Shown: one piece after another, positions 1,215 through 26,258 of the stretch
How positions within the stretch are numbered: position 1 is the stretch's first letter
Layout: the number at the start of each line of letters is the position of its first letter
DNA from: a bacterium
GTDB lineage: Bacteria; Patescibacteriota; Patescibacteriia; Patescibacteriales; GWC2-42-12
Direction of reading: 5' to 3'
DNA: 42,090 bases
Assembly: GCA_030650415.1 (NCBI GenBank)
Contig: JAUSEG010000003.1
Coordinates: forward strand, 1-42,090
Notes under the pieces: model-generated
Seen by the model: only the letters and a program-made list of their open reading frames with translations
Databases searched by the model: none
What the model was told of the DNA's origin: nothing
Translations under genes and position numbers: made by a program

Positions 1215-1244
1215 TAAGTGGCCGAAGAGGTCGCTTATTTTTTT
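1215..1244 (+). promoter_or_regulatory. Terminator-like hairpin directly against the helicase start codon
   Basis: TAAGTGGCC pairs with GGTCGCTTA over nine positions (two G-U pairs) around a GAAGA loop, followed by seven Ts and then at once the ATG at 1245. The only purine-rich stretch resembling a ribosome binding site (GAAGAGG) is in the loop and the 3' arm. The hairpin could therefore act as an attenuator or a translational block. Structure seen; function inferred. Confidence 0.55.
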
Positions 1245-2483
1245 ATGTCTACACCAATCAAACAAATTGAATCAGGTTTTAAAGAGTTGGGCGTTAGCGC
1301 CGCCATTTTAAACGCGCTTAAAAGCTTGAAAATAGAGAATCCCACTCCGATTCAAACTAAGTCTATCCCCGCAGGCTTGTTAGGGCAGGATTTAATTGGC
1401 GTGGCGCAAACCGGCACAGGCAAGACTTTCGCCTTTGGTATTCCCATGATTGAGCGATTGTTCGGAACCAACGGCCAGGGTTTGATATTGTTGCCGACTC
1501 GCGAATTGGCTATGCAGGTTGATGAAAATTTGCGCCAGTTAGGCGGCAAAATGGGTCTTAGAACGGTTTCCTTAATTGGCGGTCAGGCGATTGGCAGCCA
1601 ACTCTCAAGTTTAAGAAAAAATCCTCATATTTTTATTGCCACTCCGGGCAGAATGATTGATCACTTAAAAAGAGGTTCGGTCAGGCTGAATATGGTTAAA
1701 ATTCTGGTTTTGGACGAAGCTGATCGGATGTTTGACATGGGCTTCGCTCCGCAAATTGAAGAAATTATCAGACGAGTGCCTAAAGAGCGCCAAACTTTAT
1801 TATTTTCCGCGACTATGCCCAGAGCAATTTTAAAATTGGCCTCCGTCCATATGACCATGCCTATCCATATTGAAGTCGCGCCCCCGGGCACGACGGTTGA
1901 GCGCGTTGACCAGGAAGTCTATATTATGAGAAAAGAAGATAAGTATAAACAATTGGAAAAAATTCTCCATGAATATAAAGGCTCAGTCTTGGTTTTTACC
2001 CGGACTAAGCACGGGGCAAAAAATTTGGCCAGAAATCTTGAAATGGCAAGATATGAAGTGGCGGAAATTCATTCCAACCTGTCGTTTAATCAGCGCAAGG
2101 AATCCATGGCCGGATTTAAGTCGAAAAAATATCGGATTCTTATCGCCACGGATATTGCCGCGCGCGGTATAGATGTTTCGGATATTGAGCTGGTGGTGAA
2201 TTACGATTTGCCTGATGATTCTGAAGATTATGTTCATCGCATCGGCCGGACCGCTCGAGCCGGTAAAATCGGCAAGGCGATTTCTTTCGCTACGCCTGAC
2301 CAAGGCAGGGACGTTAGAAGTATTGAAAGATTGATCAACAAAAAATTAACTTTAAAAAAATTCGCCGAATTGGAGCAGGCCAATATGCGGCCGGTAGTAA
2401 GGCGGTATGGCCGAACCATGAGCTTCGGCCGGGTTGCCAGGCGCCCCGGAGCCGGTAATTTCGGCAGAAGAAGAGGCCGGTAA
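1245..2483 (+). CDS. ATP-dependent DEAD-box RNA helicase
   Basis: A 412-residue protein that uses ATP to unwind or remodel RNA, probably in ribosome assembly, mRNA decay or cold adaptation. The motifs appear in order: Q motif (PTPIQ), motif I AQTGTGKT, Ia PTRELAMQ, Ib TPGR, II DEAD, III SAT, and VI HRIGRTARA. A short Arg/Gly-rich tail (ending GNFGRRRGR) probably adds RNA affinity. I start it at ATG 1245. An in-frame GTG at 1218 lies inside the leader hairpin and would add nine unrelated residues. It has its own promoter at 1144-1172 and the hairpin at 1215-1244, as expected for a regulated helicase. Family certain; physiological role inferred. Confidence 0.95.
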   Translation: MSTPIKQIESGFKELGVSAAILNALKSLKIENPTPIQTKSIPAGLLGQDLIGVAQTGTGKTFAFGIPMIERLFGTNGQGLILLPTRELAMQVDENLRQLGGKMGLRTVSLIGGQAIGSQLSSLRKNPHIFIATPGRMIDHLKRGSVRLNMVKILVLDEADRMFDMGFAPQIEEIIRRVPKERQTLLFSATMPRAILKLASVHMTMPIHIEVAPPGTTVERVDQEVYIMRKEDKYKQLEKILHEYKGSVLVFTRTKHGAKNLARNLEMARYEVAEIHSNLSFNQRKESMAGFKSKKYRILIATDIAARGIDVSDIELVVNYDLPDDSEDYVHRIGRTARAGKIGKAISFATPDQGRDVRSIERLINKKLTLKKFAELEQANMRPVVRRYGRTMSFGRVARRPGAGNFGRRRGR

Positions 2484-2493
2484 TTTTGATGTT

Positions 2494-2749
2494 TGTCAAT
2501 GCGAGCGAAGAAAATTTATTTATTTTGTCATTCCCGAAGCCGAAGGCTATCGGGAATCCAGGAGGGAGAAGCAGGAATATTATTACTTCTCATAGGCTGG
2601 TTTAAATTTTTTGTATGGCGCAGGGTTTGGAAGAGGATATATATTTTTTACTGCTCACCCCTGGATTCCCGCCTGCGCGGGAATGACAAATTAGTGAGAT
2701 TGCTTCGTCTCCGCCGCCGGCTGGCGGATTGCGGATCCTCGCAATGACA
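2494..2749. repeat. Composite palindromic repeat, full form (family A)
   Basis: Nested inverted repeats. Outer arms are TGTCAATGCGAGCGAAG and CCTCGCAATGACA with GAGATTGCTTCG. Inner arms are GTCATTCCCGAAGCC...GGGAATCCAGGAGGG (from 2526) and CTGGATTCCCGCC...GGGAATGACA (2661-2688). The AT-rich middle contains no gene. The same composite recurs at 22381-22540, and partial forms occur elsewhere in the window. Confidence 0.85.
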
Positions 2750-2780
2750 TTTTAGATAAGCGCCCATAGCTCAACGGATA

Positions 2781-2889
2781 CCTGCCCGCCAGTGCCTTTG
2801 CCCTCATAGCTCAAAGGATAGAGCGCAAGCCTCCGAAGCCTGAAATAGAGGTTCAATTCCTCTTGAGGGCACAGGCAATGGCAGGCGGG
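2781..2889 (+). other. 109-base insert in the tRNA-Arg D-loop: stem arms around a tRNA
   Basis: The first 17 bases (CCTGCCCGCCAGTGCCT) pair with the last 17 (AGGCAATGGCAGGCGGG) with two mismatches and one G-U pair. Between the arms is an intact tRNA-Arg(CCG). The arms resemble the CCTGCC/GGCAGG palindrome found in frame in pilM at 9438-9484. No intron open reading frame or obvious group I core fits in the remaining bases. Confidence 0.7.
2800..2871 (+). tRNA. tRNA-Arg(CCG), inner complete copy
   Basis: A 72-base cloverleaf: acceptor GCCCTCA/TGAGGGC, D-stem GCTC/GAGC, anticodon loop CTCCGAA (anticodon CCG, reads CGG), T-stem AGAGG/CCTCT with loop TTCAATT, discriminator A and encoded CA. The anticodon stem CAAGC/GCCTG has one A-C mismatch. 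It differs from the outer copy in the acceptor and T-stems but keeps pairing, so both have been under selection or descend from different isoacceptors. Confidence 0.88.
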
Positions 2890-2975
2890 GAGCGCAAGCC
2901 TCCGAAGCCTGAGACCGAGGTTCAATTCCTCGTGGGCGCACAGTATAGATATGTTATAAATTAACAAAGCGCTAT

Positions 2976-3527
2976 ATGATGGGAGAAAATGTTGATCAAT
3001 TTTTTGAACAAGAAAAAATAAAACAAGAGAAAGTAAAAATATTGGAAAAATTAAATATTGGCTCTGTGGGGCAGGCCATAATTATGTTAGTGGCTCTTGA
3101 TTTGAAACCGGCGACAGAATTAGATTTATATAATAATAACGACAATGAGGAAGTTGTCAAAGATGCGTTGACTAAAGTTGGGCTTAAGTTTGCCAATAAA
3201 GACGTTAAAGGAAGGAAAAATGTAGTGGCGCGCTTAGCTATCGCGCGCGACAGAGAAACCTTAGATAGATTATTAGAGGTAAGTGGAAAAAAAGATCATG
3301 AGGCTTACGGTAGGCTAATGGGCTATCCTGAAACAGCGGTTCAGGCTTTTATTGCAAAGGATCTTTTAACGCATGAAGAACAGCCGCCGGAAATGGCCGA
3401 CAATATTTTTCCCATGAAGCTTTCAAAAGAACACTGGCGCGAAGAGCTGGAGAATTTAAGAATCTGGAACGAGGCGATAAAAAAATACGCCCCCGATACT
3501 TACAGACAGGCCAGAGGCATAAATTAA
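2976..3527 (+). CDS. Conserved-looking protein of unknown function
   Basis: A 183-residue soluble protein with no signal peptide or membrane segment. It has an acidic, Lys-rich, probably helical N-terminus (EQEKIKQEKVKILEKLN), a short hydrophobic helix (VGQAIIMLVALDL) and a helical C-terminal half with ALMGYPETAVQAF-like character (MGYPETAVQAFIAK). I recognise no family. Two consecutive ATGs (2976, 2979) can start it and neither has a ribosome binding site. It follows the tRNA-Arg locus and precedes recG, with its own terminator. Codon use looks like that of its neighbours, so I take it to be real. Confidence 0.7.
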   Translation: MMGENVDQFFEQEKIKQEKVKILEKLNIGSVGQAIIMLVALDLKPATELDLYNNNDNEEVVKDALTKVGLKFANKDVKGRKNVVARLAIARDRETLDRLLEVSGKKDHEAYGRLMGYPETAVQAFIAKDLLTHEEQPPEMADNIFPMKLSKEHWREELENLRIWNEAIKKYAPDTYRQARGIN

Positions 3528-3553
3528 AATTCTTATAATTCATACGTCCTTTA

Positions 3554-3583
3554 CCAGATTTATTGAAAGTCTGGCTTTTTTTG
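3554..3583 (+). terminator. Rho-independent terminator
   Basis: CCAGA(T)TT pairs with AA(A)GTCTGG and is followed by C and a seven-T run. It ends the 2976-3527 gene and lies just before recG. Confidence 0.7.
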
Positions 3584-3597
3584 TGTAAAATGAAGAC

Positions 3598-5754
3598 ATG
3601 TTGACTTTAGAAACCGATATAATCAATATCACCCGTGTCGGCGCGGCCACGGCTAAGAAGCTTAAAAAATTGGGCATAGCCACGGCGCGCGATTTACTAT
3701 TTTATTTTCCTTTTCGCTATGATGATTTTACTAAAGTTACGCCGATTAAAGACCTTCAGGCCGGCTCAATCGCTAATGTAGTCGGGCAGATTGACCTCTT
3801 GCAGAATAAGCGCAGTCCGAGGCGGAGAATGAATATTACCGAAGCTTTAATAACCGACGGCACGGAAACTTTAAAAGTTATTTGGTTCAATCAGCCCTTT
3901 ATTGCGCGTATTTTAAAAGTGGGTGATCGGGTGTCTCTCGCCGGCAAGGTAGATGAGGATTATGGTTCTTTAACTATGAATTCGCCGGTTTATGAAAAAA
4001 TTTATGAAATTTCCAACGCCGGCGGCGACTCAGCCGTGCACACGCAGGGCCTGGTGCCGAACTATCATTTAACCGCCAATTTATCGCATAAGCAGGTGAG
4101 ATTTTTGATTAAGCAGGTGATAGGTTCGGTTGCGCTGGTCACAGATTATTTACCTGATACGGTGAAAAAAAACGCGAAGCTAATAAGCCTGGGCGAGGCC
4201 ATAAAAAACATTCATTTTCCAAAAGATAATAATGAGATTAAAAAAGCTCGCGAGCGCTTGGCGTTCGATGAGCTTTTTTTGGTTCAACTGCAGTCACAGC
4301 TGGTTAAAAGAAATCTGGAATTAAGTTTGGCGCCGGCGATTAAATTTTATGAGGCGGAGACGAAAACCTTCGTGGACAGCCTGCCGTTTAAGTTAACCGA
4401 CGCGCAGCGGAAAGCCGCCTGGGAAATACTTAAAGACATAGAACAAGGCCAGCCTATGTCGCGGCTCTTAGAAGGCGACGTTGGCTCTGGTAAGACCGTA
4501 GTGGCCGTTATCGCCATGCTTAACGTGGTTTTAAACGGCCAGCAGGCGGTTTTTATGGTACCAACGGAAATATTGGCCAGACAGCATTATGAGACGGTGT
4601 CTAGATTATTAGCGGGCTTTGATGTAAAGACTGGGTTAGTAACGAGGACAAATAAGCTAATGTCAAATGACAAATTTCCAATGACAAACCAATGTCAAAA
4701 TCTTAATGACAAAAAATTAAAGTTGGATTCGGCGGGTATAGTAGAGAAAGCCGACATCATTATCGGCACGCAGGCTTTAATTCAAGATGATATTAAGTTT
4801 AGAGATTTAGGCCTAGCCGTAATCGATGAACAGCATCGGTTCGGCGTCGAGCAGAGAAAGACTCTAATGGAAAAAAGCGGCGCTAAGTTGGTGCCTCATC
4901 TCTTGAGTATGACGGCTACGCCCATACCCAGGAGTTTAGCTTTAGCCATGTACGGCGATCTGTCTTTATCCGTGATTGATGAAATGCCGAAAGACAGGAA
5001 GAAAATAATTACTAAAGTGGTGCCGGAAGAAAAACGCCAGCTGGCTTATGAATTTATTCGCGAGCAGATTCGCGCCGGCCGGCAAGTTTTCGTAATTTGC
5101 CCTTTAATTGATATATCTGATAAATTGGGCGTAAAGTCGGTCGAAGAAGAGTATAAAAAACTTGATAAAATTGTTTTTCCGGAAATTGCCATGGGGAAAT
5201 TACACGGCCGATTGAAATCCGCGGAAAAAGAAAAAATTATGAGTGAGTTCTTGGCCGGAAAAATAAAAATTATCGTGGCCACTTCGGTCGTTGAAGTCGG
5301 CGTGGATGTGCCTAACGCTTCGGTTATGATGATTGAGGGCGCGGATCGTTTTGGTTTGGCTCAGCTTCATCAGTTTCGCGGCCGAGTCGGCCGGAGCGTT
5401 CATCAGTCTTATTGTTTTTTATTTACCCAGTTAAATAGTCGCCAAGCGAATTTAACGGGGCAAGCCTCGAGCCAGGCGGATAAAACTTTAGCCAGATTGG
5501 CCGCTCTGGTAAAATACCATAACGGCTTTGAATTGGCGAAAATTGACCTAAAATTCAGAGGGCCGGGCGAGGTTTACGGCCTGGAGCAGAAAGGTTTTCC
5601 CGAGTTTAAAATGGCCACGCTGTTTGATTATGACTTAATGAAGAAGGCCAGGGAAGAGGCGGTAAAATTAATTGAAATTGATCCGAGTTTAAATAGTTGG
5701 TCTGATCTTAAAGAGAAGTTAGGCGAATGGGAGAGGGGAGTGCATTTAGAATGA
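3598..5754 (+). CDS. recG: ATP-dependent DNA helicase RecG
   Basis: This 718-residue helicase regresses stalled replication forks and migrates branched recombination intermediates. The N-terminal wedge/OB domain is followed by motif I GDVGSGKT (about residue 292), the DEQH box (about 409), TATPIPRSLA and motif VI QFRGRVGR. The C-terminus carries the usual accessory region. An insertion at about residues 350-377 (LMSNDKFPMTNQCQ...) separates motif Ia from IIGTQALIQ. Family members have about 17 residues there and this one has about 45. The extra DNA (about 4654-4735) belongs to the same AT-rich repeat family found between genes in this window. It converges on radA, with a palindromic repeat between. 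Confidence 0.95.
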   Translation: MLTLETDIINITRVGAATAKKLKKLGIATARDLLFYFPFRYDDFTKVTPIKDLQAGSIANVVGQIDLLQNKRSPRRRMNITEALITDGTETLKVIWFNQPFIARILKVGDRVSLAGKVDEDYGSLTMNSPVYEKIYEISNAGGDSAVHTQGLVPNYHLTANLSHKQVRFLIKQVIGSVALVTDYLPDTVKKNAKLISLGEAIKNIHFPKDNNEIKKARERLAFDELFLVQLQSQLVKRNLELSLAPAIKFYEAETKTFVDSLPFKLTDAQRKAAWEILKDIEQGQPMSRLLEGDVGSGKTVVAVIAMLNVVLNGQQAVFMVPTEILARQHYETVSRLLAGFDVKTGLVTRTNKLMSNDKFPMTNQCQNLNDKKLKLDSAGIVEKADIIIGTQALIQDDIKFRDLGLAVIDEQHRFGVEQRKTLMEKSGAKLVPHLLSMTATPIPRSLALAMYGDLSLSVIDEMPKDRKKIITKVVPEEKRQLAYEFIREQIRAGRQVFVICPLIDISDKLGVKSVEEEYKKLDKIVFPEIAMGKLHGRLKSAEKEKIMSEFLAGKIKIIVATSVVEVGVDVPNASVMMIEGADRFGLAQLHQFRGRVGRSVHQSYCFLFTQLNSRQANLTGQASSQADKTLARLAALVKYHNGFELAKIDLKFRGPGEVYGLEQKGFPEFKMATLFDYDLMKKAREEAVKLIEIDPSLNSWSDLKEKLGEWERGVHLE
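4654..4735. repeat. AT-rich ATGACAAAT-type repeat inside recG, in frame (family B)
   Basis: It contains AATGACAAATTTCCAATGAC, identical over 20 bases to the intergenic repeat at about 21479-21498 and close to that at 36059. The frame stays open, adding about 25 Asn/Lys-rich residues to RecG. Confidence 0.7.
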
Positions 5755-24957: not shown

Positions 24958-25683
24958 ATGAAATCGAAATTTTATAACAACCGAGGCATCAGTATCGTTG
25001 AAGTAATCGTGGCGACTATGATAATTACCATGGGTATGATTGGCGTTTCATCCCTGGTAATTCAAAACATCCAGGTGCAATATATTAATAAAAATGTTTT
25101 GATTGCCTCCGGGTTGGCGCAAGAAGGTTTGGAATTAGTCAGAAATACCAGAGATTTAAATTGGCTGACGCCTAGTAATGGCTGGGATCAGGATATAAGC
25201 GCTAGTTCATATGTTATAGATTACGGCGGTCGAAGCAGTATAGACATTATAGCCGCCGGTAGCGCTTGCGGTAACGGGTTTTGCGATCCGCTGCTTGGAG
25301 AAAGGATTGAATCCTGCGACGATTGCCATTGCGGAGACGGCGTTTGCGATCAGGGCGGCGAAAATATCGAAAATTGCCCCGTTGACTGCTCGGCTACCTG
25401 TAAAAATGGCGTTTGCGATTCTGGCGAAACCAGTTCTACCTGTCCCTCTGACTGCCCGCCGCCGGCGGATTTTTTTAATGAAATCGAATCTAGGCTATAT
25501 ATTAATGGCGGCGGTTTTTATACTCACACAACTGGTGGAAATTTGCCCACTAACTTTTATCGCTTGATTACCGTGGACAATAGCCAGGCTGAATATTTGG
25601 ATGTTAAATGCGCTATCCGCTGGAAAGATGGTAATAATAATCATGATTACACGGCGGAAACTTATTTATATGATTGGCGGTAA
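24958..25683 (+). CDS. PilV-like minor prepilin with a Cys-rich repeat insert
   Basis: A 241-residue prepilin. Leader MKSKFYNNRG, then ISIVEVIVATMIITMGMIGVS (Ile1, Glu5), followed by ASGLAQEGLELVRNTRDLNW as in PilV. Residues about 101-170 form three Cys-rich units of the type CGxGxCDxxxGExxxxCxxDC (for example CGDGVCDQGGENIENCPVDC). Such units occur in secreted bacterial proteins and may bind metal or be disulfide-knotted. A pilin-like beta region follows. It starts six bases after the previous prepilin gene. A tip adhesin or metal-stabilised minor pilin is a reasonable inference. Confidence 0.85.
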   Translation: MKSKFYNNRGISIVEVIVATMIITMGMIGVSSLVIQNIQVQYINKNVLIASGLAQEGLELVRNTRDLNWLTPSNGWDQDISASSYVIDYGGRSSIDIIAAGSACGNGFCDPLLGERIESCDDCHCGDGVCDQGGENIENCPVDCSATCKNGVCDSGETSSTCPSDCPPPADFFNEIESRLYINGGGFYTHTTGGNLPTNFYRLITVDNSQAEYLDVKCAIRWKDGNNNHDYTAETYLYDWR

Positions 25684-25705
25684 AAAGAATAATGAATCAT
25701 GAATT

Positions 25706-26258
25706 ATGAATTATGAAAAAGTAATAAAAAAACTAAGGACTGAAAAAGGCACAAGTTTATTAGAGTTATTGGTGGCGATAACCTTATTTACTTTTATGAT
25801 TTTGGTTGCGACCCAAATATTTAAAATGGTTATCGACGGTCAAAGGAATGCTATCAGCGCGCAGAATGTGCAGGAAAACATGCGCTATGCTTTAGAGAAG
25901 ATGAGCAAAGAAATCAGAATGGCGCAAAAAAGCGATACTGACTGTTTGCCCGGAGCAACCAATAAAGTTTTTAATGTAACTACCGATGGCATTAATGATA
26001 CAATATATTTTAAGAATAAAGACGGCGCTTGTGTTTCCTATTATTTGTTAGATAGCCGTTTAGGCGTAACGGCCGGCGGCGTTCCTGATTTCGCGACTCC
26101 GGCGAAAATTAAAGTCAGCAATTTAAGATTTAACGCGGTTGACGATGGTATCGGCGATGTTCAGCCTTACGTTACTATGTCGATGGACGTTGAGGCAATC
26201 GGTCTAGCCATACATAAGCAAAAGATGAAGCTGCAAATTACCGTTTCATCAAGATATT

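Follow-up and report, generated by a model that had tools for sequence, protein, structure and literature searches.

Same-isoacceptor tRNA genes nested within tRNA genes of Patescibacteria, a probable sign of in-place gene replacement

A complete tRNA gene lying inside a loop of another tRNA gene of the same kind raises the question of how the arrangement arose and which of the two copies serves the cell. Bacterial tRNA genes are described, in the review passages concerned, as structurally uniform except for self-splicing introns (PMC4033280). The corresponding passages on tRNA gene structure cover introns, split genes and permuted genes, with nested tRNA genes unmentioned there (PMC4033280, PMC4390854). 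No description of nested tRNA genes in bacteria was found in the open-access literature; an earlier description elsewhere is possible. The locus considered here is located in a stretch of 42,090 nucleotides, referred to below as the window, which belongs to a genome (G000) of 1.29 Mb in 45 contigs.

All elements of the locus are located on the plus strand. The outer tRNA-Arg(CCG), which appears to be of the resident, ancestral type, is divided into a 5' part of 21 nt (2760-2780, nt 1-21) and a 3' part of 51 nt (2890-2940, nt 22-72, including the discriminator A), giving 72 nt. The insert between them comprises 109 nt (2781-2889), and the junction falls in the outer D-loop at A21|G22. Read from the left, the insert consists of arm L (CCTGCCCGCCAGTGCC, 2781-2796), a TTT linker (2797-2799) whose T2797 is able to pair with A2873, a complete inner tRNA-Arg(CCG) (2800-2871), presumed to be the functional newcomer, a CA linker 3' of its discriminator base (2872-2873), and arm R (GGCAATGGCAGGCGGG, 2874-2889), which pairs with L. 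The arms and the CA linker were identified from the sequence and from other nested loci, and comparison with those loci indicates that a 3-nt linker is usual for this arm family. The inner gene is detected by both ARAGORN and Rfam RF00005 at 2800-2872 with anticodon CCG (67.5 bits, E 7e-14), which confirms that a second full tRNA-Arg(CCG) lies within the 109 bases, as the first-pass annotation had claimed. The outer tRNA is not called as a gene by either; a tRNA match below threshold is found for its 3' part (2878-2933, 24.7 bits). Direct reading reveals perfect outer stems (acceptor GCGCCCA/TGGGCGC, D GCTC/GAGC, T CGAGG/CCTCG), and excising the insert and joining the halves yields 20 of 20 of the inner's stem pairs with anticodon CCG, so the joined 72-base tRNA-Arg(CCG) proposed at first pass stands. 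The outer anticodon stem contains one A.C mismatch, also present in the inner, and both tRNAs have in common a derived, unusual anticodon arm, CCGAAGCCTG. The arms pair over 17 positions (2781-2797 with 2873-2889), comprising 14 Watson-Crick pairs, one G-U pair and two mismatches, exactly as first described. The RNA fold of the region reaches -81.3 kcal/mol, whereas shuffled sequences average -62.2 (z -4.1). Just 5' of the nested tRNA, at 2530-2755, there are two palindromic stretches resembling dispersed repeats (ctggattcccgcctgcgcgggaatgac; ggcggattgcggatcctcgcaatgac).

The orthologous locus was located within the family by means of the adjoining DEAD-box helicase. In the window, this syntenic anchor is a putative DEAD-box RNA helicase ORF recognised by its motifs (1218-2483, plus strand), and a putative RecG-like helicase ORF downstream (3598-5754, plus strand) serves as a second anchor; in G008 and G010, too, the tRNA locus is followed by a similar coding start. 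Two relatives, G006 and G008, carry an outer-type gene without interruption (GCGCCCA...TGGGCGC), to which the window's outer tRNA is 64/72 and 63/72 identical, with one difference in the 5' part. The window is nested with an intact outer copy, and G007 is nested with the 3' half of the outer copy interrupted. In G011, the outer 5' half and the arm are all that precede the inner gene. In G003, the newcomer gene is followed by an apparent fossil of the outer 3' part (TTCGATTCCTCATGGGCGCA), and in G012 the newcomer is found alone, 70/72 identical to the inner gene of G007. Identity between the latter and the ancestral type of the locus is only 52/72. The locus looks recombined in G002, and no tRNA is called there in G010. 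This series across relatives suggests that the outer gene is the old resident, that the inner gene is the newcomer and that the window represents an early stage, the order being drawn from comparison rather than from a dated tree.

Two further nested pairs are present in the genome of the window. On contig 45, an Arg(CCT) gene lies within an Arg(CCT) gene at the same D-loop position and with related arms. On contig 8 (about 25509-25739, minus strand; L263 1-240), a Gln(TTG) gene lies within the T-loop region of a tRNA-Gln, between long AT-rich arms. These arms are unrelated to the CCTGCCCGCC family, which shows that the sequence of the arms is not enough to define the phenomenon. Of 51 positions that can be compared between the inner and outer Gln copies, 2 differ, and together they form one paired anticodon-stem change. 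No CCG or CCT tRNA gene was found outside the nested pairs in this genome. An intact CCG gene of the outer type at another site in the genome, which the first pass had named as evidence against its reading, is therefore lacking, and CCG occurs only in the nested pair.

The arrangement is not confined to this genome. A pattern search combining an arm with the 5' end of the inner tRNA yielded further nested loci across the order. About 60 distinct nested candidates of isotypes Arg, Thr, Ala, Ser and Gln were found in independent Patescibacteria assemblies, and the same pattern idea applied to GTDB contigs gave at least 115 loci, with about 40 nested tRNAs among the matches listed. Almost all of the nested loci among these listed matches come from records that bear the label of a Patescibacteria group, namely Falkow-, Moran-, Magasanik-, Nealson-, Taylor-, Vogel-, Zambryski-, Sungi- or Doudnabacteria. 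Since nesting occurs twice more in the same genome and in many other assemblies, the architecture is not due to chance. The search of related genomes suggested at first pass thus returned both the same arrangement and an uninterrupted copy. Insertion sites are located at the edge of the D-loop (21|22 or 23|24), in the anticodon loop (35|36 or 37|38) and, for Gln, in the T-loop. The inner anticodon equals the outer one wherever the anticodon region of the outer copy is intact, with L305 as the sole exception: in this locus (L305/L207), a structurally intact outer Arg has changed its anticodon from TCT to TTT, and the inner copy still has TCT. Three-level nests are found for Thr (L092/L151 and L306), with the innermost copy intact; in L306, the inner arms are reversed in orientation and the tRNA is still sense. 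A second arm family is represented by a Ser(TGA) gene (L009, in G008; arms GCCCCGCACAAGA / TCTTGTGCGGGG) and a Gln(TTG) gene (L280, in G011; arms TCCCGCGCAAAGC / TTTGTGCGGGA), each within an apparent outer remnant of its own isotype. One record labelled Candidatus Methylomirabilis, by label another phylum, contains an Arg(GCG) gene with the same arms (L162).

Which copy stays intact was assessed in two ways. In the join test, outer halves of 62 distinct candidates were joined by brute force and scored against the inner copy. About 13 outers retain at least 95% of stem pairs, including both Arg outers of the window's genome, and the remainder grade into sequence that is no longer recognisable; many of them contain additional hairpins. 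The inners were called as tRNAs throughout, having been preselected by ARAGORN detection. Several intact outers differ from their own inner by paired, compensatory changes, which indicates that these outers have lost their function only recently or retain it to this day. The second approach, the only one free of that preselection, was an inner-agnostic search of 381 genomes of the class in which the outer 5' half plus arm was used as the query. It gave 28 matches in 25 of the 381 genomes, against one match for a reversed control pattern, and 27 of the 28 are tRNA 5' halves. For 26 of these 27, an intact tRNA of the same isotype is nested in the arms or located close downstream of a hairpin-broken copy; the remaining one (L323) is masked by Ns. 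An intact outer with a decayed inner was not seen among these matches. At a few of these loci, the intact copy lies beside the hairpin and not within it. Copies or halves of Thr, Asp, Thr, Gln and Gln genes (L313, L321, L326, L290 and L302, respectively) are split by hairpin-like inserts, with an intact copy of the same tRNA adjoining.

The structure, the recurrence, the isoacceptor match and the replacement series, as read from the sequences, are probably the result of in-place tRNA gene replacement caught midway, in which a cassette is inserted into the resident gene, the inner tRNA takes over and the outer one decays. The cassette would be a complete tRNA gene between short, imperfect inverted arms, entering a loop of a resident tRNA gene with the same anticodon, in this case the D-loop. 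Transcription would presumably still begin upstream of the resident gene, and RNase P together with 3'-end processing would free the inner tRNA, which caps the arm stem. The inner gene would then take over the supply of tRNA-Arg(CCG), and the superseded resident would decay until the newcomer alone is left. As for the route of insertion, either incoming DNA recombining through tRNA halves or a hairpin-ended element would be favoured. Imported DNA recombining through tRNA halves would explain the isoacceptor match; selection would explain it as well, since a like-for-like swap alone would be harmless. The unusual anticodon arm common to the window's two tRNAs suggests later gene conversion or local copying.

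The arms are conserved in sequence, including fixed T.G and C.A positions, and their variable core pairs no better than shuffles in a set of 15 loci, which were picked with the arm pattern and hence lean toward conservation. Conserved sequence with a core lacking covariation is more readily explained by an insert defined by its sequence than by an RNA helix under selection, and RNA-level selection on the arms was rejected because the core positions pair like shuffles. Another idea was that a plain hairpin with these arms existed beforehand and received the tRNA at its tip; it was dropped in that form, since 0 empty hairpins of this kind were found in 109 genomes. Mobilisation by RAYT was rejected because the window's genome contains no Y1 transposase (PF01797), a family present in 41 of the 61 genomes searched. 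Instead of the many genomic palindrome copies expected of a REP/RAYT system, only scattered matches with one or two mismatches occur outside the nested loci. An integrase gene and a restored tRNA 3' end, as in tRNA-integrating elements, were not found; the 109-nt insert is too short and lies in the D-loop.

Several described systems resemble the nested locus in part. Group I and group II introns also reside in bacterial tRNA genes, some at position 37/38 as in the Ala case, according to passages of one review (PMC4033280). In contrast to these introns, the nested insert comprises 109 nt, has no ribozyme match, lies mostly in the D-loop and carries a tRNA; an Rfam search of 1500-4500 at E<=0.1 listed tRNA and a weak antisense match to Plastid-ycf2 alone, and no group I ribozyme core. 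Short imperfect palindromes within genes are also known from the REP/GTAG families and from Rickettsia palindromic elements (PMC3733652). The cassette differs from them in bearing a whole tRNA at its tip, in targeting tRNA loops of the same isoacceptor, in its low copy number and in residing in a genome without a Y1 transposase. In Caldiarchaeum, a mobile element disrupted a tRNA-Thr, of which a fragment persists, and a second copy of that tRNA does the work (PMC3293823); together with the palindromic elements, this is the closest parallel. However, that case involves a 1.8-kb recombinase-encoding element and introns, whereas the nested locus consists of arms and a tRNA only, one gene within the other.

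Archaeal split and intron-containing tRNAs, processed through EndA and bulge-helix-bulge motifs, share with the nested locus a loop-interrupted tRNA and GC-rich complementary arms at the exon ends, as outlined in parts of two reviews (PMC4033280, PMC4390854). By analogy, both tRNAs might be used: the inner one would be cut out, and the outer halves would stay bound through the arm helix and form a nicked or rejoined second tRNA-Arg. This possibility is consistent with the roughly 13 loci whose outer is intact, several of them differing from the inner by compensatory changes, with a stable fold whose arm pairing reaches the exon ends and with insertion sites within D, anticodon or T loops or at their margins. 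It is nevertheless quite unlikely, given that outers in relatives are broken, truncated or gone while the inner is intact, that the otherwise intact outer of L305 has an altered anticodon and that the arm core lacks covariation. The insert, moreover, contains a complete tRNA with the same anticodon, which sets it apart from archaeal split tRNAs. The PF01974 splicing endonuclease was found in 0 of 41 genomes, including the window's own (archaeal controls, 4/4 positive), and the arm helix begins directly at A2780|C2781 and G2889|G2890, without 3-nt bulges around a 4-bp helix. Archaeal-type splicing is thus not supported, and a bacterial split tRNA without EndA, in which one transcript gives a normally processed inner tRNA and an outer tRNA used in two pieces or re-ligated on the 17-position helix, is very unlikely.

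A local origin, with the inner gene copied on the spot from the resident by template switching or palindrome-associated duplication before one copy decays, would account for the same isoacceptor in both positions, for the derived anticodon arm common to both copies in the window, for the small Gln difference, for L133, where inner and outer read as identical, and for broken copies with an intact neighbour (L313, L321). Many pairs, however, are 20-30% different with both structures intact, which implies that the inner had already diverged; the same arm sequences reappear across distant genomes and with different isoacceptors, and the G007 inner is far from its local ancestral type. Local copying is therefore judged unlikely. 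The chance of an assembly or binning artefact is practically negligible: the assembly is of metagenome type and assemblers may be confused by tRNA repeats, but this genome has its three nested loci on three separate contigs, and loci built alike, with matched arms, recur in many independent public assemblies. Consequently, of the three readings offered by the first-pass annotation, assembly error is excluded by the recurrence in independent genomes, and a new interrupted, split-like tRNA is not supported. Its third reading, an insertion that killed the outer gene, is supported with one addition: the insert carries a replacement tRNA, a pattern that recurs across Patescibacteria.

Nested loci are a source of mis-annotation, as the finder used picks up the inner gene but not the outer one, and they offer a tractable model for tRNA gene disruption. 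In bacteria such as the ultra-small host of the window, hairpin-flanked tRNA genes appear, from the sequences compared, to land repeatedly in tRNA genes of the same kind and to replace them, sometimes two deep. Such recurrent replacement from within, with intermediates frozen in living lineages, would allow essential single-copy RNA genes to be swapped without a functional gap.
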